Assembly: GCA_902500995.1 (NCBI GenBank)
Contig: CABVSR010000009.1
Span: 1-64,000, forward strand
DNA: 64,000 nucleotides
From: an uncultured Nitrospira sp.
GTDB lineage: Bacteria > Nitrospirota > Nitrospiria > Nitrospirales > Nitrospiraceae
Direction: 5' to 3'
Position numbers and translations under genes: made by a program. Within the stretch, counting starts at the first letter, position 1; every line of letters begins with the position of its first letter. A model generated the notes under the pieces. That model ran no database searches. It saw only the letters and a list, made by a program, of their open reading frames with translations, and was not told the origin of the DNA. Of this stretch, positions 21,339 through 48,613 are shown piece after piece.

Positions 21339-23798
21339 CTAGTCGCCCTCTTCGGGCACCCCTTCTTCGCGTTCGACCAGCCGCACCACGGCGACCACGC
21401 GGTCTTCGTCACCATCCATATCGAGCAGCCGCACGCCTTGCGTGTTGCGTCCGATTTCCCGGATGTCATCGACCTTGCAACGCAGCACTTTGCCCTGCGC
21501 AGCCATCAGCATGATTTCATCTTCGTCCCGGACCTGGAGGAATCCGACGGCGGCGCCATTGCGTTCGGTGGTCTTGACGCTGATGATGCCCTTGCCGCCG
21601 CGGCCCTGCACGCGATATTCGTTCACCGGGGTGCGCTTCCCGTACCCGCCTTCGGTGACGGTGAGAATCGCGGTGGTGGAATCGGGGGTGATGGTTTCCA
21701 TGCCGATGACCTCATCGCCCGGCTCCAGCGTGATGCCGCGCACGCCGTGGGCCGTGCGTCCCATGGCGCGCACATCTTCCTCTTTGAATCGGATCGTGAT
21801 GCCCTGTTTCGTGCCCAGCAGAATCTCGCGCTCGCCATCGGTGAGATCGACCCCGATCAACTTATCACCCGCATCGAGCGAGAGCGCGATGATGCCGCCC
21901 TGGCGCGGATTGCTGTAGGCCGACAATTCCGTCTTCTTGATCACGCCCTGTTTGGTGCCCATGATGACGAACCGATCCGCTCGGTATTCTTTCACCGGCA
22001 GCGTGGCTGTGACCTTTTCGTCTTTGGAGAGAGCCAGGAGATTGACCAATGCCTTGCCCTTGGCCGCCCGGCTCGCTTCGGGTATTTCATGCACCTTGAG
22101 CCAGTAGACCTTGCCCGCGTCGGTAAAGAACAGCAGGGAGTCATGAGTGGAGGCGGTGAACAGCGTTTCGACGAAATCCTCTTCCTTGATGCCCATGGCA
22201 ATCTTGCCTTTTCCGCCACGACGCTGCGCGCGATACAACGTGACGGCGTTCCGCTTGATGTACCCGGCATGCGAAATCGTCACCACGACTTCTTCTTCGG
22301 CAATCAGGTCTTCGAGGGTCAGTTCCGCTTCTTCCTTGACGATCTTCGTCCGGCGTTCGTCCTGATATTTCTCTTTGATCTCCGTCAGTTCGTCGCGGAT
22401 GATCTTGCGCACCAACGCTTCACTGCCGAGGACTGAACGCAGGTATTCGATGGTCTTTAGCACTTCCCGATACTCTTCGATCAACTTGTCGCGCTCCAGT
22501 TGCGTCAGGCGCTGGAGACGCATGTCGAGAATGGCATTGGCCTGGATTTCAGACAACCCGAACTGCTGCATCAAGCCCGCGCGGGCCACGTCGGGCGATT
22601 GCGAACGCCGGATCAAGGCGATCACGGCATCCAGATTGTCCAGAGCGATCTTCAGCCCTTCGAGGATATGGGCGCGCTCTTCCGCTTTGCGCAAATCGTA
22701 CGCCGTACGGCGCACGACCACTTCGCGCCGGTGCTCAACAAAGGCCTCAAGAATGCGCTTGAGGTTCAACACCTCCGGCCGGTTGTTGACGAGCGCCAGC
22801 ATGTTGACGCCGAAGGTCGTCTGCAATTGGCTGTGTTTATACAGATTGTTCAACACCACGAGCGGAATCTCATTGCGCTTCAGTTCGATCACAACCCGGA
22901 CTCCTTCGCGATCGGATTCATCGCGAATGTCGGAAATGCCGGACACGCGGTCTTCCTGCGCCAGGTCGGCTATTTTCTCGATCAGCTTCGACTTGTTCAC
23001 CTGGTACGGAATTTCGGTGATGATGAGGCGCTCGCGATCGGTGCGTTCGTCGGTTTCGATAGCGACCTTGGCCCGCACGGTCAGCAGTCCTCGGCCGGTC
23101 TCATACGCGTCCTTGATGCCGGATGTGCCGTAGATGAACCCGGCGGTGGGGAAGTCGGGGCCGGGGATCTTTTTCATCAGTTGGGCAATCGTCACCTCGG
23201 GATTGTCCAGTAGCAGGAGCAACCCTTCGATGACTTCACCCAGATTGTGCGTGGGAATGTTGGTCGCGTAGCCGACGGCGATGCCGCCCGCGCCGTTCAC
23301 CAGTAGATTCGGCACCCGCGAGGGCAAGACCAGGGGCTCGACACGCGATTCGTCGTAGTTCGGGCCGAAGTCCACGGTTTCTTTTTCGATGTCCGCTAAT
23401 AATTCTTCGGCCAGTTTGGTCAAGCGGGCTTCGGTGTACCGCATGGCCGCCGCCGCGTCGCCGTCCATCGAGCCGTAGTTGCCCTGGCCATCCACCAGCA
23501 TGTAACGCATGTTAAAGTTCTGCGCCATGCGCACGAGGGTGTCGTAAATCGCGGAGTCGCCGTGGGGATGGTAATTCCCCATGATCTCGCCCACGATCTT
23601 CGCCGACTTGCGGTAGGGCCGGTTCGCGGCCAGCCCCATCTCGTTCATGCCGTGCAAAATGCGGCGATGGACCGGCTTCAACCCGTCCCGCACATCGGGC
23701 AGCGCGCGACCGACGATCACGCTCATCGCGTAGTCAAGGTACGACGAGCGCATCTCATCTTCGATCGCAATCTGGCCTAGTCGTTCATCTGGCGGCAT
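21339..23798 (-). CDS. gyrA: DNA gyrase subunit A
   Basis: An 819-residue GyrA of normal length. The catalytic Tyr is residue 121 in AAAMRYTEARL. The quinolone region GDSAIYDTLV carries Ser82 and Asp86, the residues found in sensitive enzymes. The gyrase-defining box QRRGGKG lies near residue 525, before the C-terminal beta-pinwheel, so this is gyrase rather than ParC. With GyrB it introduces negative supercoils. GGAGGG precedes the ATG. A palindromic repeat fills most of the spacer to gyrB. Confidence 0.98.
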   Translation of the reverse strand: MPPDERLGQIAIEDEMRSSYLDYAMSVIVGRALPDVRDGLKPVHRRILHGMNEMGLAANRPYRKSAKIVGEIMGNYHPHGDSAIYDTLVRMAQNFNMRYMLVDGQGNYGSMDGDAAAAMRYTEARLTKLAEELLADIEKETVDFGPNYDESRVEPLVLPSRVPNLLVNGAGGIAVGYATNIPTHNLGEVIEGLLLLLDNPEVTIAQLMKKIPGPDFPTAGFIYGTSGIKDAYETGRGLLTVRAKVAIETDERTDRERLIITEIPYQVNKSKLIEKIADLAQEDRVSGISDIRDESDREGVRVVIELKRNEIPLVVLNNLYKHSQLQTTFGVNMLALVNNRPEVLNLKRILEAFVEHRREVVVRRTAYDLRKAEERAHILEGLKIALDNLDAVIALIRRSQSPDVARAGLMQQFGLSEIQANAILDMRLQRLTQLERDKLIEEYREVLKTIEYLRSVLGSEALVRKIIRDELTEIKEKYQDERRTKIVKEEAELTLEDLIAEEEVVVTISHAGYIKRNAVTLYRAQRRGGKGKIAMGIKEEDFVETLFTASTHDSLLFFTDAGKVYWLKVHEIPEASRAAKGKALVNLLALSKDEKVTATLPVKEYRADRFVIMGTKQGVIKKTELSAYSNPRQGGIIALSLDAGDKLIGVDLTDGEREILLGTKQGITIRFKEEDVRAMGRTAHGVRGITLEPGDEVIGMETITPDSTTAILTVTEGGYGKRTPVNEYRVQGRGGKGIISVKTTERNGAAVGFLQVRDEDEIMLMAAQGKVLRCKVDDIREIGRNTQGVRLLDMDGDEDRVVAVVRLVEREEGVPEEGD

Positions 23799-23809
23799 CT
23801 ACCCTCCAT

Positions 23810-23932
23810 CGGATGCTGAAAATGGTCCCCGGCTTCGTTCTCGGCTTGCCAACATCCTCAATGTACCCAGAGGGTACACCTGCGGTGTTGGCGTCGCCTG
23901 CGGCCTCGCCGGATGACCATTTTGAGCATCCG
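23810..23932. repeat. Palindromic repeat element between gyrB and gyrA
   Basis: End arms CGGATGCTGAAAATGGTC (23810-23827) and GACCATTTTGAGCATCCG (23915-23932) are nearly perfect inverted copies. The centre holds GTACCC-AGA-GGGTAC, also found in the element at 55365. It is part of a dispersed family in this window. Confidence 0.8.
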
Positions 23933-23958
23933 CTCAATTCATCGAACCAATGTGTCGG

Positions 23959-26433
<2,475 letters not shown>

Positions 26434-26527
26434 TCAACTCCTAGGTCGATGCGTTCAGTCTTCAGCCATCAGATCACAGCATGGGACGATCTGCCGATCG
26501 CTGCACGCTGACTGCTGATCGCTCGTT

Positions 26528-27658
26528 TCAAATCTTGATCGGCATCACCACGCATTTGAATCCCGGACTCTCGGCCTCCTGTATCAGGCAGGGGCTCAAG
26601 GCCGTATCCATCTGCAACGAGACCGATTCTCCGTCCATGACGCTCAAGGCGTCCAAGAGATAGCGGGCATTAAAGCCGGTGTGCAGCGCTTCGCCCTCAT
26701 AACGAGCCGCTAATTCTTCGGTGGCTTCCCCGTAATCCGGATTACTGGAGAACAACGTCATGCCCCCTGGGGCGAACGACATCTTGACCGCATTGGCCTT
26801 GTCCTTCGACAACACCGAGACACGCCGCAAGGCGCTCTCCAACAATCCGCGATTGACGATGATCCGCTTGCCGCTTTCCTTCGGCACCACCTGCTGGTAA
26901 TTGGGATAATTCCCCTCCATGAGCCGGGAGGTGAGCAACAGGCCGCTTTTCCGGAAGATCATGAGGTTCTTGGTGAACCCGATCAGCGGCTCCTCGTCGC
27001 CTCCCTCTTCGAGCAGGCGCCGCATTTCCTGAGCGGCTTTCTTCGGGATGATGGCCTTGATGTCCTGCGCCGGGGGCTTCGCGCTCGGGCTTCCGACTTC
27101 ACGCTCCGCTACGGCCAGGCGGTGACCATCGGTGCCCACGAGGCGCAGCAGCGTCGTTTTCTTGTCGGTGGCCGAGAGGCTGACGAGCAGACCGTTCAAG
27201 ATGTACCGGGCATCGTTATCGCCTGCGGCAAAGAGGGTCTTCCTGATCAACTCCAGTAAGCCGGCCCCGGCCAGCGGCGTCAATCCCTCCCGTTCAATCG
27301 AAGGCAACGCAGGATAATCGGCGCTGGGAAGACCGACGACCTTGAATTGGCTCTTCCCGAATTGGATGGTGGTCCAGTTGTTATCGCCGGAGGTCAGTTC
27401 AATCTCACCGCTCGGCAACTCCTTGATGATTTCGTACAATTTGCGCGCCGAGATCGTGACGCCGCCGGCCTCCAACACGGTGGCCTTGTACAACCCGCGC
27501 ATGCCGATCTCGAGATCCGTGGCGACGATTTCTGCCCCGTCGTGCTTGGCCTCCAACAGAATGTTCGAGAGGATCGGCATGGTGTTCCGTTTTTCCACGA
27601 CACCCTGCACGCGTTGCAAGCCCGTCAACAATTCCTCTCGTCCGATGCGTACCTTCAT
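26528..27658 (-). CDS. dnaN: DNA polymerase III beta subunit (sliding clamp)
   Basis: A 376-residue clamp protein with three repeated domains. MKVRIGREELLTGLQRVQGV opens the first; LPSADYPALPSIE, TDGHRLAVAE and a C-terminal CVVMPIKI (the family usually ends in M-P-[MI]-[RK]) mark the fold. It forms a ring on DNA that tethers polymerase. It starts 23 bases after the dnaA stop and is probably co-transcribed with it. Confidence 0.98.
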   Translation of the reverse strand: MKVRIGREELLTGLQRVQGVVEKRNTMPILSNILLEAKHDGAEIVATDLEIGMRGLYKATVLEAGGVTISARKLYEIIKELPSGEIELTSGDNNWTTIQFGKSQFKVVGLPSADYPALPSIEREGLTPLAGAGLLELIRKTLFAAGDNDARYILNGLLVSLSATDKKTTLLRLVGTDGHRLAVAEREVGSPSAKPPAQDIKAIIPKKAAQEMRRLLEEGGDEEPLIGFTKNLMIFRKSGLLLTSRLMEGNYPNYQQVVPKESGKRIIVNRGLLESALRRVSVLSKDKANAVKMSFAPGGMTLFSSNPDYGEATEELAARYEGEALHTGFNARYLLDALSVMDGESVSLQMDTALSPCLIQEAESPGFKCVVMPIKI

Positions 27659-27681
27659 GGTCGGTCTCCCTCAGAGAGCGC

Positions 27682-29025
27682 TCACGCCCTCAAGATCTGT
27701 TCTTTCAAGCCTTCCAGCGTCGTATGCAGGGTGCTGTCGGCCTCTTTGGCTTTGGTGATCTGCCGGCAGGCATGAATGATCGTGGTATGATCCTTGCCGC
27801 CGAATTGGCGGCCGATCTCAGGAAATGACGCGTCCGTGAGCTCCCGGCAAAGATACATGGCGATCTGGCGAGGATGCACCAGCGTTTTACTCCGCCGGCG
27901 CGATTTCAGATCGGCAATCTTCACATGGTATTTCGACCCCACGGCTTCCTGTATATCCTCGATGGAGACGATCTTTTTCTTTTCGCCGATGAGATCCCGC
28001 AAGACACTCTTCGCCATCTCCAGAGTGATGGCCTGCCCGGTGAGCGAGGAATAGGCGCCGACCCGTACGAGGGACCCCTCCAACTCACGGATGTTGTTCT
28101 TCATCGTGTTCGCCAAAAAATGGATCACGTCTTCAGGCAGCGCAATCCGCTCATCTTCGGACTTTTTCCGCAGGATGGCGATCCGGGTCTCGACGTCCGG
28201 TGGCTGCAGATCGGCAATCAGGCCCCACTCAAACCGCGACCGCAGCCGCTCTTCGATATCCGGCATGTCCTTCGGAAAACGATCGCTGGAGAGGACAATC
28301 TGTTTATGGGCTTCATACAGCGTGTTGAAGGTGTGAAAGAATTCCTCCTGCGTCCGTTCCTTCCCCGCTAAAAACTGGATGTCGTCGATCATCAGCATAT
28401 CGACGTTGCGGTACCGCTTGCGCAGGTCGATCATCTTGTCGTAGCGAATCGAATTGATGACTTCGTTCGTAAACTGTTCCGTCGTCAAATAGGCGATGCG
28501 CAGGTCGCTCCGTTCAGCCAGATAATTTCCGATGGCATTGAGCAGGTGAGTCTTTCCCAGTCCCACGCCGCCATACAGAAACAAGGGGTTGTAGGCCTTC
28601 GCCGGTTGCTCGGCCACGGCCATGCAGGCCGCGTGCGCAAACTGATTGCCGGCGCCGACGACGAAACTCTTGAACGTGTATTTCGGATTCAGTTGAATGC
28701 CTCGCTTGGAGCGTGAGGCCACGAATCCGCGTCCGGCCGTATCCGCTGCGGACTGATCAGGCTGCGCTTGAGCGGGCGCCTGTTTCTGGTTGACCACGAA
28801 CGAGACATCCATCCGCCCGCCGCCCTGAGCGGCCGATACCGCTTCGGCGAGCAGATCGTGATAATGCTCGCCTAACCAGTCGCCGAAAAATTTGTTCGGC
28901 ACGGCGAGATAGGCGGTCGTGTCTTCAATCCGATCCAGCACGACCGGAGTGAACCAGGTTTCATACACCTGTTTAGGCACCTTGTCTTGGATGTACACTA
29001 ACGCGTCGTTCCACATCTGATTCAT
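27682..29025 (-). CDS. dnaA: Chromosomal replication initiator DnaA
   Basis: A 447-residue DnaA with all four domains: N-terminal helicase-interaction domain ([13 protein letters not shown]), a variable linker with Gln/Ala/Pro (about 90-115), AAA+ domain with [16 protein letters not shown] and [20 protein letters not shown], and the DNA-binding domain with [20 protein letters not shown] and [12 protein letters not shown]. The upstream region holds several DnaA boxes, so autoregulation and origin firing are expected there. The start may be this ATG or the Met three codons later. Confidence 0.98.
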
Positions 29026-36547: not shown

Positions 36548-39500
36548 TTACCCAGCCTGCGAGGGTTCACCCGGATGTTGAACCCTGCGCCACACTCCTG
36601 ACGGCATGTAGCGGTACCAGGTGCCGTCCTCAGGATCCAACGCCGCGAGATGAACCCACTCGTTGTGATAAAAATGCTGCAGAATTTCATGCCGCGCGAT
36701 GAGTCGTTCGATGCGCGAGCGCGGGGCTTCGACCAGCGTCATCAGGCGGATCGGTTCATGAAAGGGCAGCTCGCCGTTCATGACGGTTTGCCAGGCCAGT
36801 CCGAGGCGAAGATCGCTATAGGGGCCGGACATGATCCCCAGGCGGCCGACGACGTTGTGATAAATCTTGCTCCCGCTCCCATAGACATCATTATCCACGG
36901 CGGAGAAATAATGCTCCATGTTGATCCACTGCGCCACCACTTGCGGGGCGGTGAGGAGCACTTCGAGCCATCGGTCGGTCGGGTCTTCGCGATGATCATA
37001 GGATTGGAGAAAGATCCGCCCGGACAAATTCAGCCCCTTCGTCAGTTCCCGCCGGCCGATGATGAAGGCGGTGTTGCCGGAGAGGCCCCATTCGGGCCGC
37101 ACCTGACTCCAGTCCGCGCTGCGCTCAGCCACATGGCCTGACGCCTTCTCAAGCGGCAGCACGGCGCCGACATCGGGAAATCTCGTGCAACGCTCCTGGC
37201 TGGTGAGCTGAGCCGCTTCCCGTAAATCCTCATACAGGCGAGCCACATCCTTGCGGTGGGTCGGCGGTGCGTCTTCGAGATCGAACAGCTGCACCTCATC
37301 AGTCGTCGTATCGATCTGCCCGGCCAAAAAGTGCGTATCCGGCGGAATGACGATGCCGCGTTTGGCCAGCCGTTCACGCACCGGAGCGCGGTTGGCCATG
37401 GCCGCCAGGACACGCGCGTTCGGTTTCCCTTCATTGCCGCCGCAGGCGCCGCAGTCCAGCGCCGACTCGAACGGATTGTTTTCCGTGGTACTGCCGTGGG
37501 CGCAGAACAGCACGAGCCGGGCGAAATTTCGCACCAAGCCCATCATGCGCAACGCCGTTTCGAGAGTCATCACCTGCTCCTCGAGCGTGAAGCCGGTGCG
37601 CGTGATGCGTTCCTTCTGGCGCGAGGCTGCGCGGCCGTTGATTCGATAGTGCCGCTGCAGCTCATCGATAAACGTGGAGAGTTGCTCGCTCGAGAGATCG
37701 ATCGCCCGGGCGGCCTCGCTCAAGAACGGCTCCACGGGTGCGTCCTCGTCCAAGGCTCGCCGTCGCAGCGCTTCGACGAATTCGGCCTCGACTCTGGAGC
37801 CATGCAAGCCGAACCGATCGCGCAGGGCCTTCCAGATCAGCGCACGTTGCTCGGAGGCGACCATTTCTTCGGTTTCAGCCGGCGCCAGTTTGTCGACGGT
37901 TAAAATGGTCGCGATCGGCGGCACAAACAAGCGGCGGATCCAGCCGGTCAGTCGCTTGTAGAGAGCCGGCAGAAAGGTCTTGCCCATCATGGGCAGGACA
38001 TAAAACCAGCCCAAGGATTCGACCATCACATACGGCGTGACGACGTTTTCTTTCAAGTCGTGCAACAGCGTATGGCCCGCATGCACCAGTTTGGCCCGGG
38101 ACTGGTGTTTGGACACGTAATGGTCCAGGTAGCTGCGAGGGATTTCCCGCACCTCGTTCTTGGCGCGCATGATGACCGGGAACTGCTCGGTTTCATGTTC
38201 CTTGCCCCACGCGCGATATCGAATCAGGGCGGCAAAAAATCCCGCGAACCCGTAGGTCTCGTTGGCGCCCGTGGATTCCAGATGCCGGCGGAACGGCTCG
38301 GACCGCACATCGATGCAAAAGACCGATTGGGAGTGCGGGCGTACCGGCGGTTGACCGTCGGGGGCGGCAGGCTGCGGTTTGGTCGGCGCGCGCCGCAACA
38401 TCCCGAACAGGTGCTCGTGATACCCGGCCTCCAAGGCCTTCAGCCATACGGGTCCATGGGCCGTTTCGGGAAATTCGTCCATCCAGTCCAGGAGCCGTCG
38501 AAGGGCGGCCGGCGGCGCGTCCATCAACAGGGCCGGCACGATTTCGAGCGCCTGTGCGAGGGTGAGGAGGCGTTGGGCCATGGCCCGTTGCGAAGCCCGT
38601 TCCCGCCGCGGACCGAATTCGATTTGATAGTGGTGCGTGAGCCGCTCCCATTCGTGGGACAGACCGGCCTGGGCCGGTTGGCCGACCGATCGTGCGTGGA
38701 GGCGAGCGACTCGATCGGCAAAGGAAGCGGGCAAACGGCCGGCGACCCATTCCTTGCGCAAAAAGTACGCGGGAGACTGCTGGTCCATCACGCGCATGGC
38801 CGCGCGATAGGTGCCTTCGATGCCCAAGTGTTCCCGGCAGACCTGTTCGACCAGTTCGCGGACATACCAGAGCCGCACGGCGAGAAATTTTACCAGGCCG
38901 ACAGGGTAGGCCTGCTGCCAGGCATAATCGTTTTCCTCCGCCCTCCATTTGATGAAGCCGGCCCAACCGGGCAAGGCGGCAAGCTGCAGCGAGAGGTAGT
39001 CCTGCCGGAACTCTGCCGGGATCGCCAAGGCTTCGAGGCAGTCCAGCACCAGGTCTTCCGGATGTTCCGGCAGCGCGGCAATCTTTCGGCGGCTGTCCGC
39101 GATGCCGCAGGTCGTCCATTCATTGGCGGCCGCCTGCTTCCAGGCCGCATACAATCCCTGGCGCCGTCCCGGCATCGGCCAGGCGGCATGGCCTTCATCC
39201 AGGAAGGCCTCGCACCATTTGATCAGTTCGCCGTTGATCAGCTCGCCGATCCTGGTGCCCAGCGTCCGGTCGCACCAGGTCGAGAGAGTCACCTCGCGGC
39301 CCAGCGCAGCCACATCGTCGCGCACCGTGGCGGCGATCCGTTCCTGCACCGTCGGCGCGGCAAAGCCGACGAGGTGCTCGGCCAGGACCTCTACCTGTTC
39401 CTCGTTCGGCGCTCGTTCCATAAGCCGGTCACAGGTTGCCTCGCCCGGGCGCGACAAACCATGGGTCAGGCAGGCACGCAGCACCTCACGCTGTGAAATG

Positions 39501-39826
39501 CGGCAAGATCCGAGATCGACTTCTTGATCCTGCGCGAGGGGTGCCAAGGCCTCATCGAGATGGCGGACGAGAATGCGCCCGGTTTTGACGTAGCGACGGT
39601 AGAGATCCCCGGAAAGATATCCATCGCCGCCGAGGAATTGCCGGCCGCGCCGGACCGTTTCGGTAAACGGCAAATATTCGAGGCTGTGAAGAGGATTATG
39701 GTGCACAAAGGTGCGCATGGGCCAATACTGCGCGATGACTTCGCTGGCGAGCCGGATCATACCCCGCAATTCCATGCGGCGGGTTTCCTGATCCATCGGA
39801 TCTGCGGTGCGAATCATCTGGTCCAT
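36548..39826 (-). CDS. dabA: DabA, inorganic carbon uptake protein (DUF2309)
   Basis: A 1092-residue DUF2309 protein, a distant relative of beta-type carbonic anhydrase and the cytoplasmic subunit of the DAB bicarbonate/CO2 accumulation complex. The zinc ligands known for DabA are all present: Cys504 and Asp506 in FCIDVRSEP, His777 and Cys792 in HGSTTENN...SALDC, with the expected 15-residue spacing. Such complexes use the proton gradient to hydrate CO2 in one direction and supply carbon fixation. The start overlaps the preceding gene by 13 bases. A PII-like gene follows. Confidence 0.93.
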   Translation of the reverse strand: MDQMIRTADPMDQETRRMELRGMIRLASEVIAQYWPMRTFVHHNPLHSLEYLPFTETVRRGRQFLGGDGYLSGDLYRRYVKTGRILVRHLDEALAPLAQDQEVDLGSCRISQREVLRACLTHGLSRPGEATCDRLMERAPNEEQVEVLAEHLVGFAAPTVQERIAATVRDDVAALGREVTLSTWCDRTLGTRIGELINGELIKWCEAFLDEGHAAWPMPGRRQGLYAAWKQAAANEWTTCGIADSRRKIAALPEHPEDLVLDCLEALAIPAEFRQDYLSLQLAALPGWAGFIKWRAEENDYAWQQAYPVGLVKFLAVRLWYVRELVEQVCREHLGIEGTYRAAMRVMDQQSPAYFLRKEWVAGRLPASFADRVARLHARSVGQPAQAGLSHEWERLTHHYQIEFGPRRERASQRAMAQRLLTLAQALEIVPALLMDAPPAALRRLLDWMDEFPETAHGPVWLKALEAGYHEHLFGMLRRAPTKPQPAAPDGQPPVRPHSQSVFCIDVRSEPFRRHLESTGANETYGFAGFFAALIRYRAWGKEHETEQFPVIMRAKNEVREIPRSYLDHYVSKHQSRAKLVHAGHTLLHDLKENVVTPYVMVESLGWFYVLPMMGKTFLPALYKRLTGWIRRLFVPPIATILTVDKLAPAETEEMVASEQRALIWKALRDRFGLHGSRVEAEFVEALRRRALDEDAPVEPFLSEAARAIDLSSEQLSTFIDELQRHYRINGRAASRQKERITRTGFTLEEQVMTLETALRMMGLVRNFARLVLFCAHGSTTENNPFESALDCGACGGNEGKPNARVLAAMANRAPVRERLAKRGIVIPPDTHFLAGQIDTTTDEVQLFDLEDAPPTHRKDVARLYEDLREAAQLTSQERCTRFPDVGAVLPLEKASGHVAERSADWSQVRPEWGLSGNTAFIIGRRELTKGLNLSGRIFLQSYDHREDPTDRWLEVLLTAPQVVAQWINMEHYFSAVDNDVYGSGSKIYHNVVGRLGIMSGPYSDLRLGLAWQTVMNGELPFHEPIRLMTLVEAPRSRIERLIARHEILQHFYHNEWVHLAALDPEDGTWYRYMPSGVWRRVQHPGEPSQAG

Positions 39827-41118
39827 GGTTCACTCGTCATGGCGATTGCGGCGGGAGTGCCCGCCGGCGGCTCAAACATCCGGGACGGAGCCGTCCCCAG
39901 CAGGAGCAGCAACAGCAAGATGAGAAGCAGCGAAACGAATTCCGTCTGCCGCAAATCTTCGTGCCGGATGTCCAGACGCGACCGGCCGAACACGATCTGT
40001 TGAATGAGGTCGGTGTAGTACCAGGAGGCGGTGAGCCAGACGAGCATGATGATGGCGAACGGTCCCGACGGGGAAAAGGCGGGTGTCAGCAACATGCCCA
40101 GGAAGCCGGAAAAGACGCCGAACGGCGGCATGCCCAGCGCGGCGAGCGCCAGCAGCGCGAGCAGGGTGCTAAAACGGGGCATGGGATAGGCGAGACCGCC
40201 GAGCGCCCGGAAATCGATATCCCCATATCGCGCCCGGATGGCGTACCAAGCCAGGAGGAGACCGCTGATCGTCAGCCCCACCGCGCTGAGATACACCAAG
40301 GCCTGGGCCGGCGCGGTTCCCGTGTCGGCAATGAACCACCAGAGCAGGCAGAAAAAGGCCAGCGCCGCATAGCCGAGCCGCGGCAGCGGATGCGACTGAA
40401 TCAAGGCCCGCAGAGAACCATAGACTGCGCCGGCCAGCGCCAGGATCGCCACCGTGCGGAGCGCGGCACCGGGCAGGCTCGGGAGCAGCAGAGAGAGTGT
40501 GTGGAATCCCACCGTGGGCAGAACGAAGGCCAGAAAGGCGGGAAGATTGCCCGGCAATCCATTGAGCGCCGCCACGAAGCCGCTCTGCAAGGGCAAGAGG
40601 GGCAGCAGTGTGGCGCAGGTGATCAGCGAGGCGATGGTCGAAGCCGGTGCCGGAAGCGCCAAGGCCATCAGCGTGCACAGGATGCCCAGGCCGAATGACG
40701 ATATCCCTTGCCAGGTTTCTGCCGTGGAGCTCGGCGGATGCGCATACAACAATCCGGAGACGACGGCCAGGAGCAGCACCAGCAAGAACCCCTGCGCAGC
40801 CGCGTGGCTCGTGAGAATGCCCAGCGCCAGGCCGAGCAGGATCAGGGTCATGGTCCAGGCTGAATGGTGAGCCCGGTGCAACGGCTGCCCGAGGAGCGTG
40901 AGAAACGCCGTGACCGGAAGCAGGGACAGAAACGCCATGCCGGCCGGCGATTCCGGGTGTGCCAGAGATGTCCCGATGACGGCCAGCAGACTGGCTGCGG
41001 TCGTCACCAGCGCCACAGTTTTCATGCGCTGCAGGGACGCGTTCACCAAGAGGCAAAGACTGGCCCCTAACAAAGGAATGGCCAGGAGGAGCCAGGGTAC
41101 CATCCAGGCCTCGATCAC
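39814..41118 (-). CDS. Additional NuoL/M-like membrane subunit in the DAB operon
   Basis: A roughly 434-residue integral membrane protein with about 12 hydrophobic helices (for example FLLVLLLAVVSGLLYAH and FVSLLLILLLLLLLG). The second half, with PRFSTLLALLALAALGMPPF and GVFSGFLGMLLTP, resembles the C-terminal part of NuoM/MrpD proton-channel proteins, but the conserved channel Lys and Glu motifs are weak. It lies between dabB and dabA and overlaps dabA. The GTG at 41118, with GAGG upstream, is my start; an ATG at 41103 is an alternative. Confidence 0.75.
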   Translation of the reverse strand: MIEAWMVPWLLLAIPLLGASLCLLVNASLQRMKTVALVTTAASLLAVIGTSLAHPESPAGMAFLSLLPVTAFLTLLGQPLHRAHHSAWTMTLILLGLALGILTSHAAAQGFLLVLLLAVVSGLLYAHPPSSTAETWQGISSFGLGILCTLMALALPAPASTIASLITCATLLPLLPLQSGFVAALNGLPGNLPAFLAFVLPTVGFHTLSLLLPSLPGAALRTVAILALAGAVYGSLRALIQSHPLPRLGYAALAFFCLLWWFIADTGTAPAQALVYLSAVGLTISGLLLAWYAIRARYGDIDFRALGGLAYPMPRFSTLLALLALAALGMPPFGVFSGFLGMLLTPAFSPSGPFAIIMLVWLTASWYYTDLIQQIVFGRSRLDIRHEDLRQTEFVSLLLILLLLLLLGTAPSRMFEPPAGTPAAIAMTSEPWTR

Positions 41119-41176
41119 GACCGGCCCTCGATGGCGGCTGCAGACGCGCCGCCATGGTTGCACTGCCTGAATGCCA

Positions 41177-42871
41177 TCACGACAGCGGTTTCTCCAGGCG
41201 ATGGGCGACCTGCGCCACGACGCGGCCGATGGTGAGATAGAGCTGATCCAGATACAGCCGGTTCATGAAGAGGACGTAGAGGCGGACGAGAAAGGCCTCG
41301 ATCCATCCGGGAATCGTGATGGTGCGCCCGTGGGCATGGGCATACAGATAGACCCAACTCAAAATCGTCAACACCGTGGTGCCGAGGACGAGACTGTCGA
41401 ACAGCCGTCCGGGCAGCGCCGCGGCCTTGAAATAGCCGGCCACTTCATCGGCGTTCGGGTACAGAAAATGGGTGAAGCTCTCCACCGCAAACAGATAGGT
41501 GAACACGACGATCATCAGGGTCGCCAGCATGGCCGCCGACACCTTCCAGGAAGCGACCGCGCGGATGCGCGTCAAGGAGAGGATCGCCTGCGAAGACGTG
41601 ACCCAGATGAAGAAGAGGAGGATCACCGTCCCCTGCGATTCGAGCAGCGGAATGCGCAGCACGCCGTGCGTCACCAGCAGGATGATCAACGGCAGCAACA
41701 GGGTGGTCAAAAATCCTGTGGACCAGGTCAGGTTGGAAAATTCTTGTTCCTCCGTCTCGCGATCGACCGGCGGAAAGGAGGGTTCTTGGCGCGCCTTATG
41801 AATGACGTTGCCGCAGTTCAGGAAGACCGTCCCTTTGAACAGGCCGTGCGCGATGAGATGGAAGACGGCGAGGGAAAAGGCGCCGAGGCCGCATTCCATG
41901 ATCATGTAGCCCATTTGGCCGATCGTGGAGAATCCGAGGGTCTTCTTGATGTCGTTCTGGGTCAACATCATGGTGGCGCCGAGGATCGCCGTGAGCATGC
42001 CGATCACGAACACCACATGCAGCGTTGTCGGGCTCATGCCGTAGAGCGGGGCCAGTCGGTTCAGCAGGAACCCTCCGGCATTGATGATGCCGGCGTGCAG
42101 CAGCGCGTGGATCGGGGTCGGGGCGTAGAGCGATCGCGGCAGCCAGGTGTGAATCGGAAATTGCGCCGACTTGCCCATGGCGCCGCCGAAAATGAGCAGG
42201 GTCACCGCGGTGACGCCGTTCATTTCCCATCCCAGCGCGGGCCAGATCGAAAGGGTCACCGGCGACGCTGCGGCGCGTGTGAACAATGTCTCAAATTCCG
42301 ACGTGCCGTACAGCGAATAGCCCAGGACGATACCTGCGAGAAAAGCGGCATCGCTGAGCCGCAAGGTCGTAAAGGTGTTGGATGCGCCGGACAGGGTGGC
42401 CGCATGCCCGTGGTTGTGCGCCAGGAGAAAGAGCAGCCAGGAGAGAATTTGCCAGAAGATGAAAAGCATCACCAGATTGGCGCTGGCGACCATGCAGAGC
42501 AGCACCGAGGTCGTGAGGCCCAGCATGCCCAGATACCGTCGGTACCCGCGATCCTGATACAGGTAGCCCATCGAATAGCGGTAGATGAGGGTGTTGACAC
42601 CTGTGATCAAGACCATCATGGCCGCACTGAGCCGGTCGATGTAGACGCCGATCGGAAAGGCGAGATTGGCGACGGCGGCCGGATCGTACAATCGGAACAT
42701 GATCGGGCCTTCCACGGTCACCATGATCAATATGATGACGGAACCGAGGAAGGATGCCGCGATCGGGAACAGGCCTGATCGGGCGTTCTGCTCCTGGTCG
42801 GCTCGATCGCCGGTCATCACAATGAAGGCCGTGAGTAACGGCAACAGCGGGACAAGCGCCGACAAGGACAT
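41177..42871 (-). CDS. dabB: DabB, proton-conducting NuoL-like membrane subunit
   Basis: A 564-residue polytopic protein of the complex I/Mrp antiporter family: ANLVMLFIFWQILSWLLFLL, FGGAMGKSAQFPIHTWLPRS, YAPTPIHALLHAGIINAGGF and DIKKTLGFSTIGQMGYM are the classical TM7-TM10 signatures with the Lys and His of the proton path. In the DAB system DabB carries protons that drive DabA. It is first in the operon, with a strong hairpin in the leader about 30 bases before the ATG. The length and lack of other complex I genes nearby argue against NADH dehydrogenase. Confidence 0.9.
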   Translation of the reverse strand: MSLSALVPLLPLLTAFIVMTGDRADQEQNARSGLFPIAASFLGSVIILIMVTVEGPIMFRLYDPAAVANLAFPIGVYIDRLSAAMMVLITGVNTLIYRYSMGYLYQDRGYRRYLGMLGLTTSVLLCMVASANLVMLFIFWQILSWLLFLLAHNHGHAATLSGASNTFTTLRLSDAAFLAGIVLGYSLYGTSEFETLFTRAAASPVTLSIWPALGWEMNGVTAVTLLIFGGAMGKSAQFPIHTWLPRSLYAPTPIHALLHAGIINAGGFLLNRLAPLYGMSPTTLHVVFVIGMLTAILGATMMLTQNDIKKTLGFSTIGQMGYMIMECGLGAFSLAVFHLIAHGLFKGTVFLNCGNVIHKARQEPSFPPVDRETEEQEFSNLTWSTGFLTTLLLPLIILLVTHGVLRIPLLESQGTVILLFFIWVTSSQAILSLTRIRAVASWKVSAAMLATLMIVVFTYLFAVESFTHFLYPNADEVAGYFKAAALPGRLFDSLVLGTTVLTILSWVYLYAHAHGRTITIPGWIEAFLVRLYVLFMNRLYLDQLYLTIGRVVAQVAHRLEKPLS

Positions 42872-42890
42872 GCGAACCCCATGCTCGCGT

Positions 42891-42946
42891 TAAAATGAAA
42901 CAGGCCAGCCGGCGGTCCTTCGCGCAAGGAACCAACGACTGGCCTG
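42891..42946 (-). terminator. Terminator-like hairpin in the leader of the DAB operon
   Basis: Minus-strand stem CAGGCCAG (42946-42939) with CTGGCCTG (42908-42901) enclosing a second stem GGTTCCTT / AAGGACC, followed by TTTCATTTTA (42900-42891). There is no upstream minus-strand gene to terminate, so it may be an attenuator controlling read-through into dabB. Confidence 0.6.
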
Positions 42947-43261
42947 CACTGTCCCCGGCCTTTCCCTGAATGGAAACACCGGCAAGACCCTACTGCCTGT
43001 CTCAGTACATCGATGGAGTGGGTCCGGGCCGCGCAACAATCACGGCCTCTCGTCGGCACCACCGGAAAACTGGGTTAGATGTATCCGTGGAACCGGCGCA
43101 ATTGCAAGCGAAAACTCCGCCGGTTGACTCTGATGCGTCCGTACCCACGCTCGGTTGCAAGGCGGAGACGGCAGTTCCGGTACCGGCTCTCATAGGACTA
43201 GAGTCCTGGAGCGCCCGTGACTATAATCCGGTCGTCCGTGTCTATCTCACCAGGGAGCAAG
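42947..43261. other. Divergent region between DAB operon and DUF2294 gene
   Basis: 315 bases, no gene with ribosome site on either strand. Several short frames are present, all without family similarity. It presumably carries the promoters of both directions and the leader of dabB; no promoter box was identified with confidence. Confidence 0.5.
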
Positions 43262-43636
43262 ATGACCGTGCCTGCTGCCAGCAAGGGAGAAAAGGAAGCC
43301 GCCGTTCGCACGGCGATCATCAAATTCGAACAGGAATTTCTCGGTCGCGGCCCCGACGAAGTCCGCGTGTTCATTGTCCGCGATATGCTGGTGGCGCGGC
43401 TAAAGGGGGTGCTCACCCCCGCGGAGCGACAACTGGCCAAGACGGCCGAGGGCATCGACATGGTCAAGCGGCTGCGGCAAAACCTCATCGCCCAAGGGCG
43501 GGATCGACTCTGCGAACAGGTGGCGGATCTGATCGGCGCCAAGATTACCGCCCTCTTCACCGACATCGATACGGTGGTCGGCGAGCGTATTTTCGTCTTC
43601 ACCCTGGAATCCGATCTGGAAGCGAATTTTCGGTAA
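43262..43636 (+). CDS. DUF2294-family protein
   Basis: A 124-residue protein with IIKFEQEFLGRGPDEVRVFI, VRDMLVARLKGVLTPAERQL, then GRDRLCEQVADLIGAKI and DTVVGERIFVFTLESD, the pattern of DUF2294 (Na-translocating or bicarbonate-transport-associated by genome context in several bacteria). AGGGAGC before the ATG at 43262 selects this start over the longer frame. It is divergent from the DAB operon and shares its upstream region. It may be a regulatory protein of carbon uptake, an inference from position. Confidence 0.75.
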   Translation: MTVPAASKGEKEAAVRTAIIKFEQEFLGRGPDEVRVFIVRDMLVARLKGVLTPAERQLAKTAEGIDMVKRLRQNLIAQGRDRLCEQVADLIGAKITALFTDIDTVVGERIFVFTLESDLEANFR

Positions 43637-43662
43637 GATGAGTGAAGTGGGGCACTAGGGCC

Positions 43663-45138
43663 ATGACGAAACACAAGCTGGAAACCCTCACCTTCGACAA
43701 CAGCTACGCGCGCCTGCCGGAGGTGTTCTACGCCAAGGTGAATCCGACGCCGTTCGGCGCCGCCCCCTACCTGATCAGCGCGAATCGCGCAGCAATGGAT
43801 CTGCTCGACCTCGACCATGCTGAAGCAGCGCGACCCGAATTCGCCGGAGTCTTCGGCGGCAGCCTGCTGGTGCCGGGCATGGAACCGCTCGCGATGTTGT
43901 ATTCCGGCCACCAGTTCGGCGTGTATGTGCCTCAGTTGGGCGATGGCCGGGCTATTCTTCTGGGAGAAATCGTCAACGGGCGTGGCGAGCGGTGGGATCT
44001 GCATTTGAAAGGCGCAGGCATGACGCCCTTTTCCCGCGACGGCGACGGTCGCTCCGTGCTGCGCTCGGCCATTCGCGAATATCTCTGTTGCGAAGCCATG
44101 CATGGCCTCGGGATCCCGACGACCCGCGCGCTCTGTTTGGTCGGGAGCGACGACAAGGTCTATCGCGAGCAGGTGGAAACCGGCGCAACCATCGTCCGCA
44201 TGGCGCCCTCGCACGTGCGGTTCGGCACCTTCGAGATTTTTTACTACCGGAAGCAGCATGAGCATCTCCAGCGCTTGGCCGATTACGTAATCGAGATGCA
44301 TTTTCCCCAGCTGACCCAGGCTGCCGATAAGTATCTCCGCTTCTTTGCGGAAGTTGTCGAGCGCACGGCGAAGCTGATCGCGCAGTGGCAGGCAGTGGGC
44401 TGGTCCCACGGCGTGCTGAACACCGACAACATGTCGATCTTGGGAGCGACGCTGGATTACGGCCCCTATGGCTTCATGGATGATTACGACCGGGGCTTTA
44501 TATGCAACCATTCCGACTACAATGGACGGTATGCCTTCAACCAGCAGCCCTACATCGGCCTGTGGAATCTGAGTTGTCTCGCGCAAACCCTCTTGCCGCT
44601 CGCGCCGAAGGACGTCTTAAAAGAGGTGTTGGATGGCTACCAGGTCCTGGTCGATCGATCGTATCGAGAGCAGATGCAAAAGAAGCTCGGCCTCACGGAA
44701 GATCGCGGCGAGGACGAAACGTTGCTCCAGGAGCTGAAATCGCTCATGGCCGGCAGTCGCGTGGATTACACGATATTCTGGCGTGAACTCGGCACCTTCT
44801 CATCCGAGCCTGCGGCGAGGAACGAACGGTTGCGGGAGCATTTTTTGGATCCGGGACGGTTCGATCTCTGGGCTGCGCAGTACCGCGACCGGCTGCGTGG
44901 AGAGCAGAGCCGGGACGACGAACGGCGCGTTCGCATGGATCGCGTCAATCCCAGGTACGTCCTCCGGAACTATCTCGCGCAAGGGGCCATCGAGAAAGCT
45001 CAACAGAAAGATTACACGGAAATCGACTGCCTCCTGAATCTGCTGCAACATCCCTATGTGGACCAGCCCGGCATGAATTCTTACGCGGTCGCCCCGCCGA
45101 ACTGGGGCAAACATCTCAGCGTGAGCTGCTCCTCGTAA
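43663..45138 (+). CDS. selO: SelO (YdiU/UPF0061) protein adenylyltransferase
   Basis: A 491-residue pseudokinase of the SelO family, which transfers AMP to proteins under oxidative stress. Family blocks include SGHQFGVYVPQLGDGRAILL, LHLKGAGMTPFSRDGDGRSV, VGWSHGVLNTDNMSILG (the catalytic-like segment) and YGPYGFMDDYD. The C-terminal SVSCSS keeps the conserved Cys that replaces selenocysteine of eukaryotes. The start at 43663 is supported by similarity from the first residues. The gene follows DUF2294 by 26 bases and may be co-transcribed. Confidence 0.93.
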   Translation: MTKHKLETLTFDNSYARLPEVFYAKVNPTPFGAAPYLISANRAAMDLLDLDHAEAARPEFAGVFGGSLLVPGMEPLAMLYSGHQFGVYVPQLGDGRAILLGEIVNGRGERWDLHLKGAGMTPFSRDGDGRSVLRSAIREYLCCEAMHGLGIPTTRALCLVGSDDKVYREQVETGATIVRMAPSHVRFGTFEIFYYRKQHEHLQRLADYVIEMHFPQLTQAADKYLRFFAEVVERTAKLIAQWQAVGWSHGVLNTDNMSILGATLDYGPYGFMDDYDRGFICNHSDYNGRYAFNQQPYIGLWNLSCLAQTLLPLAPKDVLKEVLDGYQVLVDRSYREQMQKKLGLTEDRGEDETLLQELKSLMAGSRVDYTIFWRELGTFSSEPAARNERLREHFLDPGRFDLWAAQYRDRLRGEQSRDDERRVRMDRVNPRYVLRNYLAQGAIEKAQQKDYTEIDCLLNLLQHPYVDQPGMNSYAVAPPNWGKHLSVSCSS

Positions 45139-45358: not shown

Positions 45359-48300
45359 ATGGCCTTCAAGGGAGACGATTCCACCCTATCCCTAGCCACG
45401 ACGGTCACCCTGGCGCTCGCCGTGGCCGCCATGGTGCTCACCAAGGAGCCGCTGCAGAGTTCGCGTCCGCCGGGTCTGGGCACGGGCCTTCAGCAAATGA
45501 CCGGTGAACTCTCCGTTCGCGCAAGGCTGTGGGAAGACCCCTTCGCGGCCGTCGAGAAGGCTGTCGAGGCTCAAAGACAGATTTCGGTTCAGATCATGGC
45601 CGACGAGAAAAAGCTTGGTCTTGTGAAGGCGAGGATCGCCGCATCGTCGGAGAACAACGACGGCTTGAAAAGCCTGCAGGCCAAAATCACAGAGATGGAT
45701 GATGCTAGCCGCGAACAGTTACTGGTGTTGGTCGTGATGACTCAACATGGATACTCGGTCGAGGCCGCCGAGGTGCGCATTCGAGATCGGTACGCGGTAG
45801 GAGCCGGGCTGGAGGTTGGTTGTTTCGTTCCTAACAAGGGCGAGTCATTGTCCTACTTCATGTGGAAGTTTTCTGAAGAAGGAAGTTACCAAGACTCTCA
45901 ATACACTCCTTACGAATGGTACAAGCGAAACACGTTCAGTACCTGCATGTCGGGCAACAATTCCTTCCGTCAGATATTGGTACTGTGGGTCAAGTCCCCC
46001 GAGTCCGACGATAAGATCCTGGCTCGTCTCAATGCCTTGCTGAAAAAGATCCACCCAGAGGACTGGGACGAAGGCAAGAGGTTGCGGGTAAAACTCCTAG
46101 GCCCTCGCAGTTCGTCGGAGTTTCGAAGCATTCTGGAAGAAATCGAGGCGAGCCTCTCTAAAAACCCACACGCCCGCTACGCATGGCATGCGGAAAATGG
46201 CCGAGTCGAAATCTATTCCCCCTGGGCGACCGCAATGCCACAGCTCATCGGTCATGGGCTCAAGGCGTTTAACGGACAGCTCTGCGGCTCCACCACTGAC
46301 ACTCAGCAACCGCAGGAGACATTGCTGAGGGCGGCCTGCCTTGTACGTTCCTATCAAGTCACTAGTGACGACATTCTGTTTGAATCTCTCATAGAGGAAC
46401 TTGAGCGTAGACGGGTGAGAATCGGGACTGACCGGATTGTATTGATAGGGGAATGGGATTCGTTCTATGCCAGGGCTCTGCCTCTGACGTTTACAGCGGC
46501 CGCCTATCGGCATCATCACAACCAAGAAAAGTTTCATGGCGAGTGTAAATCTCGGTCTTCGTCACGATCCGGCGAGGCGAGGTCAGGTGACAATCAGAAA
46601 TGTCTGTCGGTCGGGCATGGAATCGAACGAGTATTCGGAAACAGGGGGCTACAGGAAGAACTCAACATCGTTCAATACAGCTACCTGAGCGGTCTGGATG
46701 GAGAGACGGCGGAGGATCAAGCCAAACGAACCAAGTCGAAAGATGACGATAAGGCTAAGGACCGGGATAAGGGGGAAGGTAAGGGCCCGTTCCGTGACAT
46801 CGCGTCATACGAGCGGCCTGAGGGACAGGCACAGCTGGACTATGTGCGGCGATTGGTGACGCGCATCAAGGCCGAATGCCAGGACGACCGCCAGCAGAAT
46901 AAGAACAATACCGAGAAGAATCACGAACAGAACACGGACGGCAAGAAACGAAGTGGAACGGTCAAGGCCATCGGAATCCTTGGACGAGACCCCTATGATG
47001 CGCTGCTGATCCTACAAGCCGTACGCGAAGAATTTCCGAATGCCCTGTTCTTTGCCACCGATCTGGATGCCCGCTATTTTCATGAGGATGAGCAGAAGTG
47101 GACGCGTAACCTCATCGTGGCCTCGCAATTCGGGCTCCAACTGGCGCCGTCGCTGCAGCAGAGCATTCCTCCATTTCGCAGCTCGCTTCAAACCTCCACG
47201 TTTTTTGCCGTGCTGCAAGCCGTCGGTGCGGTTGCATCGAGTCCTGAGAATGGGCTGATTCCGCCCCGCATCTTCGAAATCGGCCGCCACGGAGCGGTGG
47301 ATCTGAGTACTGACTGGCCTGGGAAAGGCTTACCCACGATCCATCCCCTTCGAACCGATGTCGACCGCGAAACCAGGACATTCAAGCCGCCGCCGCAACT
47401 CGCGTTTCTCTGGATCGTCGGACTGACTCTCGGGTTCTTGGCGCTCTGGGGCTACGGGCGTCTGTGGAATTGGATGACGGCACGGGACGAACCAGATCCG
47501 GCCAAGCGCCGGCTTCAATGGATCCCGCGCTCAGCCTGGGTGCTGATTCCCGTGGTGATGGTATTGGTATTTACGTGTCAGGTTGTCCATCTTACAACGT
47601 ATGCCGAAGAGGAACCGTTTTCCTGGACCGACGGCGTGAGCATTTGGCCCACGGAGGCTCTGCGGTTTATGGCCATATGTCTCAGCCTCTTTTTCCTCTT
47701 CAAGGCGCGTGCGGATTCCGCCCGCAACATTGATGAGCTCACGAAGTCCTATTCCTCCGAATTGCAATCTGATGACAATTCCAAGGCTGGCAGATGGCGG
47801 GACAAATTGAAAGGTTTCGGGAGTGACCTGAACTGGATGTTCCACGGCTCCAAGCAGGACTATCCGGGGGACCTTAAGGATCTGTGGATGCGTTACCGCC
47901 GCGCCCACGGGTTTCTACCGCGCGCGGCTCGCATTGCCATGGGATTTGCGGCCTATCTCTGCCTTCTCCTGCCGTTGGTGCTGGTCATGAACGACGGCAA
48001 ACTCCGCCTCTCCGTCCCTTGTCGCGGCACGTTCAGTTGTGCCATTGACGTGGGTTTACTCGTTGCGAGCGTCTTGTCATTCCTCATCCTGAATTTAGCC
48101 TTATTAGACGCGGTGATTCTCTGCACTAAATGGATTCAGGAAATGCCGTCGGCAACAGGCGATCTGACCTCGATGCAGAAGATCCGCCTCATCGTCGAGC
48201 GGAGCACGGTAGTGAATCGGCGCGTGCTTCATCCCTTCCTGGTCCTATTTCTATTGATCGCCGCCCGGAACCATTACTTCGATAATTGGGATTTCCCGCC

Positions 48301-48613
48301 CGTGTTGATCTTGGCTTTGACTGTCAATAGCCTTGTATTAATCACCAGTGCTACTGTGCTCTATGTGGCGGCGGTGGGAGCCAAACGGCGCATCATTGCT
48401 CCCTTGCAGGACCAACTCGATAAGACCGCTCCGTCAGCCGATCAGACCGGTTCAGCTGATCAACGTGCATCAAATGAGTCGATCCGGCTACTCATCAAAG
48501 AGATCGACAGCATCCAACAAGGCGCCTTCGTGCCCTTCTATCAGCAGCCGATGGTACAGGCAACGCTGGTGGCCGCTCTCGCCTTCCTGCAATACTGGTA
48601 TCTCGGCCAGTAA
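45359..48613 (+). CDS. Large uncharacterised membrane protein with extracytoplasmic domain
   Basis: A 1084-residue protein. One N-terminal helix (LATTVTLALAVAAMVLT, residues 12-28) is followed by about 650 residues that are predicted to lie outside the cytoplasm. This part includes VRIGTDRIVLIGEWDSFYAR and, near 540-600, a stretch AIGILGRDPYDALLILQAV with NALFFATDLDARYF, reminiscent of a type-I periplasmic-binding-protein fold. Two Lys/Glu/Asp-rich low-complexity segments (about 455-490 and 520-540) sit inside. From residue about 683 there are seven or eight membrane helices. The ATG at 45359 has AAAGGA six bases before it; a TTG is two codons upstream. No family recognised. Confidence 0.85.
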   Translation: MAFKGDDSTLSLATTVTLALAVAAMVLTKEPLQSSRPPGLGTGLQQMTGELSVRARLWEDPFAAVEKAVEAQRQISVQIMADEKKLGLVKARIAASSENNDGLKSLQAKITEMDDASREQLLVLVVMTQHGYSVEAAEVRIRDRYAVGAGLEVGCFVPNKGESLSYFMWKFSEEGSYQDSQYTPYEWYKRNTFSTCMSGNNSFRQILVLWVKSPESDDKILARLNALLKKIHPEDWDEGKRLRVKLLGPRSSSEFRSILEEIEASLSKNPHARYAWHAENGRVEIYSPWATAMPQLIGHGLKAFNGQLCGSTTDTQQPQETLLRAACLVRSYQVTSDDILFESLIEELERRRVRIGTDRIVLIGEWDSFYARALPLTFTAAAYRHHHNQEKFHGECKSRSSSRSGEARSGDNQKCLSVGHGIERVFGNRGLQEELNIVQYSYLSGLDGETAEDQAKRTKSKDDDKAKDRDKGEGKGPFRDIASYERPEGQAQLDYVRRLVTRIKAECQDDRQQNKNNTEKNHEQNTDGKKRSGTVKAIGILGRDPYDALLILQAVREEFPNALFFATDLDARYFHEDEQKWTRNLIVASQFGLQLAPSLQQSIPPFRSSLQTSTFFAVLQAVGAVASSPENGLIPPRIFEIGRHGAVDLSTDWPGKGLPTIHPLRTDVDRETRTFKPPPQLAFLWIVGLTLGFLALWGYGRLWNWMTARDEPDPAKRRLQWIPRSAWVLIPVVMVLVFTCQVVHLTTYAEEEPFSWTDGVSIWPTEALRFMAICLSLFFLFKARADSARNIDELTKSYSSELQSDDNSKAGRWRDKLKGFGSDLNWMFHGSKQDYPGDLKDLWMRYRRAHGFLPRAARIAMGFAAYLCLLLPLVLVMNDGKLRLSVPCRGTFSCAIDVGLLVASVLSFLILNLALLDAVILCTKWIQEMPSATGDLTSMQKIRLIVERSTVVNRRVLHPFLVLFLLIAARNHYFDNWDFPPVLILALTVNSLVLITSATVLYVAAVGAKRRIIAPLQDQLDKTAPSADQTGSADQRASNESIRLLIKEIDSIQQGAFVPFYQQPMVQATLVAALAFLQYWYLGQ

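Follow-up and report, generated by a model that had tools for sequence, protein, structure and literature searches.

The window analysed here, 64,000 nucleotides of a contig from an uncultured Nitrospira sp., carries a gene for a 1084-aa membrane protein within a conserved group of genes. The features of the locus, with those predicted within the protein, are:

36548–42871, reverse strand: DabA/DabB-type inorganic carbon transporter genes, divergent, part of the conserved locus
43217–43636, forward strand: MpsC (PF10057), conserved upstream neighbour
43642–45138, forward strand: SelO protein adenylyltransferase, conserved upstream neighbour
45359–48613, forward strand: whole gene for the 1084-aa membrane protein, intact ORF with conserved MAFKGDD start
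45380–45445, forward strand: predicted N-terminal anchor helix, residues 8–29, N-terminus inside (model, topology)
45710–47308, forward strand: predicted periplasmic type I periplasmic-binding (Venus-flytrap) domain, residues ~118–650 (structural match over 118–603, strand/helix order, weak profile score)
46715–46792, forward strand: charged low-complexity insert 1, residues ~453–478 (sequence)
46877–46963, forward strand: charged low-complexity insert 2, residues ~507–535 (varies between orthologues)
47399–47449, forward strand: TM0, residues 681–697, predicted to re-enter the membrane after the sensor, running from outside to inside (models, topology)
47528–48610, forward strand: seven-helix domain, residues 724–1084, with a predicted 7TMIC-like (insect OR/GR) fold (topology, model, Foldseek, VIA)
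47609–47650, forward strand: extracellular loop 1 and start of TM2, residues 751–764, with the invariant EP.....G.S.WP, predicted to face the sensor (conservation)
48455–48607, forward strand: predicted split TM7, TM7a 1033–1051 (cytoplasmic) and TM7b 1064–1083 (model; criteria of PMC9998090)
48703–49416, forward strand: Abhydrolase_2 (phospholipase/carboxylesterase), conserved downstream neighbour, at 8–11 nt in several relatives

The ATG at 45359 is the correct start, given that the orthologues share the MAFKGDD N-terminus. Other Nitrospira, among them 'Candidatus Nitrospira defluvii', carry close full-length orthologues (51–72% identity), and the family profile detects members in 119 of 175 Nitrospiraceae genomes, or in 84 if only the 114 good ones are counted, so that, judging from sequence, this is a real gene and neither a chance frame nor an orphan. 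The observation of the initial annotation that this intact 1084-residue frame belongs to no recognised family holds in the searches performed: the best hits have E-values of 0.066 in Pfam, 2.3 in NCBIfam and 0.85 among PDB sequences, none of them credible, and there is no match in PADLOC. Pfam and NCBIfam searches with 17 diverse relatives likewise gave no match, and comparison of family profiles with Pfam, NCBIfam, PADLOC and PDB sequences yielded nothing credible either. Matches to a sodium channel and a serotonin receptor (E 0.01–2) were rejected, being limited to short hydrophobic stretches. The family is a previously unclassified one, represented by a large membrane protein in most Nitrospiraceae.

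Phylum-wide, the profile search is positive for 86 of 395 genomes, including another family of the same order and one genome from a distant family. A 35% identical paralogue lies on another contig of the genome from which the window comes. Wherever the frame is intact both domains co-occur, and the membrane domain was never found in an intact frame without the sensor. A search of plasmids recovered a single fragment, a 174-residue N-terminal relic in Methylosinus (31–38% identity; the family profile scores it at 77 bits), so that the family also occurs outside Nitrospirota, on an alphaproteobacterial plasmid; a search for viral relatives found none. The relic, on a plasmid of Methylosinus sp. 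C49 (L091, 13842–14363), comprises the anchor helix, the ARLWQDP motif and the first strand. One orthologue in a metagenome-assembled contig (L007, 663–3848) is broken into three frames, probably by sequencing error or as a decaying copy.

Family-averaged hydropathy delineates a single helix at the N-terminus and eight towards the C-terminal end. The summed K+R content of the loops following TM0, TM2, TM4 and TM6 is 5.1, 12.5, 5.3 and 9.0, respectively, against 0.6, 1.6 and 1.1 for the alternate loops, and, as expected under the positive-inside rule, the N-terminus would be located inside and residues 30–680 (~650 residues) in the periplasm. The layout originally proposed from the sequence, i.e., an anchor, about 650 residues outside and a C-terminal helical region, is upheld by hydropathy and loop charges, with eight helices in the latter region. 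The two charged low-complexity inserts mentioned there also exist, the second one being nearly missing from a 77%-identical orthologue (L001).

The full-length AlphaFold2 model was built from an alignment of eight mostly similar sequences and is of low confidence (pLDDT 52); a Foldseek search with it returned no significant row. When the Foldseek candidates were aligned using VIA, residues 118–603 of this model matched type I binding proteins and Venus-flytrap receptors, with Z of 8.9 for both 4eyq and 3ukj, 8.1 for LivK (3td9), 7.9 for mGlu4 and 7.4 for NPR-C, and Z of 7–9 for dozens of type I chains; among the matches listed there is no other soluble fold. The model, low as its pLDDT is, contains an alpha/beta fold of two lobes whose strands are ordered as in type I proteins, and the predicted secondary structure follows the canonical succession, beta1-alpha1 through beta8. 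Conserved motifs, namely, GPRSS following strand 3, SPWAT in strand 4, E/SWDxxYGR in strand 5 and AIGILG...FFATD in strands 7–8, occupy positions that correspond to the motif sites of type I proteins such as LivJ. In hhalign comparison with 22 Peripla_BP_6 proteins, the score was 26.5 against a mean of 14.9 (sd 2.0) for shuffled profiles, none of the 60 shuffles reaching it, although a long control family scored as high; with a larger alignment, the score was 23.5 against 16.1 for shuffled profiles. The hhalign probability in these comparisons was 1–2.5%. The hhalign alignment with Peripla_BP_6 keeps the GPxSS/SPxAT register. No Pfam match of the sensor domain was detected for the query or the 17 diverse relatives. 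The profile comparison for this region thus gave a signal that exceeds the shuffles but is weak. The type I periplasmic-binding fold proposed in the initial annotation is supported by the model, in which it spans residues ~118–603, the block quoted there representing strands 7–8 only; the assignment draws on structure, the backing from sequence being weak.

The membrane region (residues 672–1084) was modelled separately, from 10 mostly similar sequences, with pLDDT of 69 (80–90 in the core helices) and pTM of 0.66. In the Foldseek search with this model, rows 1–12 were all insect ORs and GRs (best E 0.009, probability 0.98), albeit with low TM-scores (0.2–0.36) and VIA rmsd of 5–7 Å. In the VIA comparison, the first 15 rows were again insect ORs and GRs, with Z of 10.7 for Gr43a, 10.4 for BmGr9 and 9.2 for Orco (9.2–9.3 across the two models), and the first unrelated row consisted of designed proteins at Z 8.3; these values are to be read with the caveat that helical bundles may reach Z 13 through a common arrangement. 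The predicted topology is that of 7TMICs, i.e., seven helices (residues 724–1084, following the extra TM0), the N-terminus inside and intracellular loops (~78, 34 and 57 residues) longer than the extracellular ones. The helix lengths also agree, with a long TM4–TM6 anchor, in which the projecting helices comprise 41, 34 and 50 residues (these are lengths only, packing being judged by the alignment Z), and with TM7 split into segments of 19 and 20 residues with a loop of 12 residues between them. The published threshold for 7TMICs is a Dali Z above 10 to Orco (Benton and Himmel, PMC9998090), and the VIA Z used here is on the Dali scale; the Orco value obtained here falls just under this threshold and slightly below the accepted distant members of the class. 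For comparison, PHTF scores 11.8–12.9 and unrelated seven-helix proteins score 2–4 against Orco (PMC9998090). By this measure, the predicted membrane domain makes a borderline-to-good case for 7TMIC membership.

The TM7 motif TYhhhhhQF is absent, the C-terminus reading LQYWYLGQ or LLEYLATFF. This motif is typical of insect GRs, is partly or wholly missing outside insects and is not required there (PMC9998090); hence it is not a defining feature of the 7TMIC superfamily. Profile comparison with the C-terminal half of Orco produced scores like those of shuffled controls, without a signal, and the helices match no transporter family by sequence or fold. With the sequence-profile tests being weak for the binding domain and negative for 7TMIC, both assignments are made by predicted fold only.

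Among 18 diverse members, 8 of the 14 invariant residues of the membrane domain map to the 49 extracellular-loop positions (1.7 expected, P = 4e-5) and 1 to the 195 intracellular positions; the invariant W763 and P764 directly adjoin extracellular loop 1. The EP.....G.S.WP, PxRG and R..YFD loops thus make up an outer face towards the sensor that is conserved. Such clustering is as expected if the sensor acts on these loops.

In the core clade, to which the window copy belongs, the gene occupies one conserved locus, and this syntenic clade is well supported and phylogenetically stable. The order is MpsC, SelO, the 1084-aa gene and Abhydrolase_2, adjoining the divergent DabAB bicarbonate transporter; SelO is found at most two genes upstream in 25 of the 26 loci, a DabB-type gene in 23, MpsC and a nearby EttA gene in 22 each, and Abhydrolase_2 downstream in 19. 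Pfam searches confirm the neighbours MpsC, SelO, Abhydrolase_2, Hydrolase_4, a PNPOx-like protein, DabA and its NuoL-like partner. The gaps that flank the gene in the window are 214 and 89 nt, and the spacing had originally led to the conclusion that the gene has no linked neighbour. This does not hold in the relatives, where the order SelO, 1084-aa gene, Abhydrolase_2 is kept: in 7 of 18 loci, the directly following Abhydrolase_2 gene starts after 8–11 nt, so that in these seven loci the two genes are probably transcribed together. Copies of a second clade sit between dnaE and NnrS. The remaining copies are scattered, and no recurring neighbour was found among them; a second copy in one genome (G116; L060, 3481–12804) lies among patatin-like, metallo-beta-lactamase-fold and S1/P1 nuclease genes. 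The pattern is that of an ancient core gene accompanied by paralogues rather than that of a defence gene.

Within 36548–43636, the window contains DabA, a middle gene (39814–41163) and a DabB/NuoL-like gene, all on the reverse strand, and the divergent MpsC on the forward strand, i.e., a complete MpsABC/DAB-type inorganic carbon uptake locus that is kept in relatives. MpsAB is a bicarbonate transporter in Staphylococcus aureus (PMC6689103, PMC8552792). A row of genes on the reverse strand at 21339–29025 begins, by eye, like GyrA, GyrB, DnaN and DnaA in their N-terminal sequences, so the window is probably close to the replication origin. That the sensed signal is inorganic carbon would be a speculation from this neighbourhood, and the existence of a paralogue beside dnaE weighs against a role bound to the DabAB locus.

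The gene family, its architecture, topology and predicted folds and the conserved outer face are the basis, obtained by prediction and conservation, of the reading that we favour, albeit tentatively and at slightly less than an even chance: a receptor-channel in which a Venus-flytrap sensor would gate a seven-helix channel of the insect OR/GR fold. In such a protein, the two-lobed domain, tethered to the membrane on both sides, would bind a small periplasmic ligand and close, and this movement would pass via the conserved extracellular loops to the seven-helix domain. By analogy, the latter may assemble into an oligomer, probably a tetramer, and open as an ion channel lined by TM7b, the segment that lines the pore in insect receptors (criteria of PMC9998090). 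Ligand binding, oligomerisation, the pore and ion flux are what we infer here. The original suggestion of a receptor or channel gains support from the insect-chemoreceptor-like predicted fold of the last seven helices. With somewhat more reserve, we propose that a core gene of a free-living bacterial nitrifier encodes a ligand-gated ion channel whose seven-helix, insect-chemoreceptor fold is driven by a Venus-flytrap domain.

The same domains could instead form a receptor that is no channel. As in class C GPCRs or 7TMR-DISM proteins, ligand binding would then be relayed by the Venus-flytrap domain and the seven helices to another protein in the cytoplasm. We consider this unlikely but worth retaining: the sensor plus seven-helix layout, the absence of a catalytic domain from the protein and the cytoplasmic loops of the sizes given above are compatible with it, and one distant copy (G294; L051, 8121–12901) is followed by a TPR-S/guanylate-cyclase gene that might encode a signalling partner. 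However, this gene was not seen elsewhere, no recurrent signalling partner was found among the copies, and the matched fold is that of channels rather than GPCRs. It is improbable that the protein is a transporter with its own fused binding protein, in which the helices would transport a solute that the periplasmic domain has captured. Type I binding proteins do usually serve importers and the core copy shares its locus with the DabAB inorganic carbon transporter, but no ATPase or other energy-coupling gene is directly adjacent, and the lack of a transporter match for the helices also speaks against it.

Even less probable is an envelope protein in which the binding-like domain, with no small ligand, is structural or regulates envelope enzymes, as the C-terminal domain of LpoA does; the stability of the core gene and its charged, variable inserts would agree with such a role, whereas the strong conservation of the C-lobe and of the ligand-contact motifs of type I binding proteins would not. 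Finally, we regard as very improbable the possibility, raised in the initial annotation, of a defence effector, which would be triggered by infection and permeabilise the membrane. A few non-core copies adjoin patatin, TPR or cyclase genes, and there are scattered PADLOC matches among neighbours. Nevertheless, PADLOC scanning of the neighbours of 13 mostly non-core copies revealed no recurrent defence system, the protein itself lacks a PADLOC match, and the window copy is a vertically kept core gene syntenic with SelO. The defence proposal is thus not supported.

If the receptor-channel reading is correct, the animal sensory-receptor layout exists in a free-living nitrifier, an added domain is able to drive the 7TMIC fold, and a tractable bacterial protein becomes available for ligand finding and gating tests. 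It also provides a testable function for a core gene of a nitrite oxidiser located beside bicarbonate uptake genes. Insect odorant and gustatory receptors were long regarded as an animal invention. Structure-based work first took 7TMICs to plants, protists and vertebrates and found none in prokaryotes (PMC9998090); their transfer to prokaryotes has been mentioned (PMC11526382). Later, in 2023, Himmel et al. reportedly described 7TMICs across the tree of life, including bacteria and archaea.

Among known systems, class C GPCRs (mGluR, the sweet taste receptor) have the same succession of a Venus-flytrap ectodomain and a seven-helix domain, but the helices of the 1084-aa protein resemble those of 7TMIC channels, whose orientation in the membrane, with the N-terminus inside, is opposite to that of GPCRs, and no evidence of G-protein involvement was found for this family. 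Bacterial 7TMR-DISM receptors, which consist of an extracytoplasmic sensor and seven helices and end in cytoplasmic output domains, are similar in the first two respects; the 1084-aa protein lacks the output domain. With type I binding proteins and Venus-flytrap receptors (Peripla_BP_6 and ANF_receptor; LivK and the ectodomains of mGluR and NPR-C), it shares the predicted two-lobed fold, the strand order and the GPxSS, SPxAT and YG positions; unlike them, it has large inserts and no Pfam match, and its sensor is anchored in the membrane at both ends and fused to eight helices. In contrast to the insect members of the 7TMICs, the protein has a periplasmic domain and TM0 and lacks both TYhhhhhQF and sequence-level similarity. 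With the 7TMICs at large (Orco, OR10, Gr43a and BmGr9, plant DUF3537 and PHTF) it has in common, as predicted, the seven helices with the N-terminus inside, the long TM4–TM6, the split TM7 and intracellular loops longer than the extracellular ones, and insect ORs and GRs are its best structural matches in the PDB.
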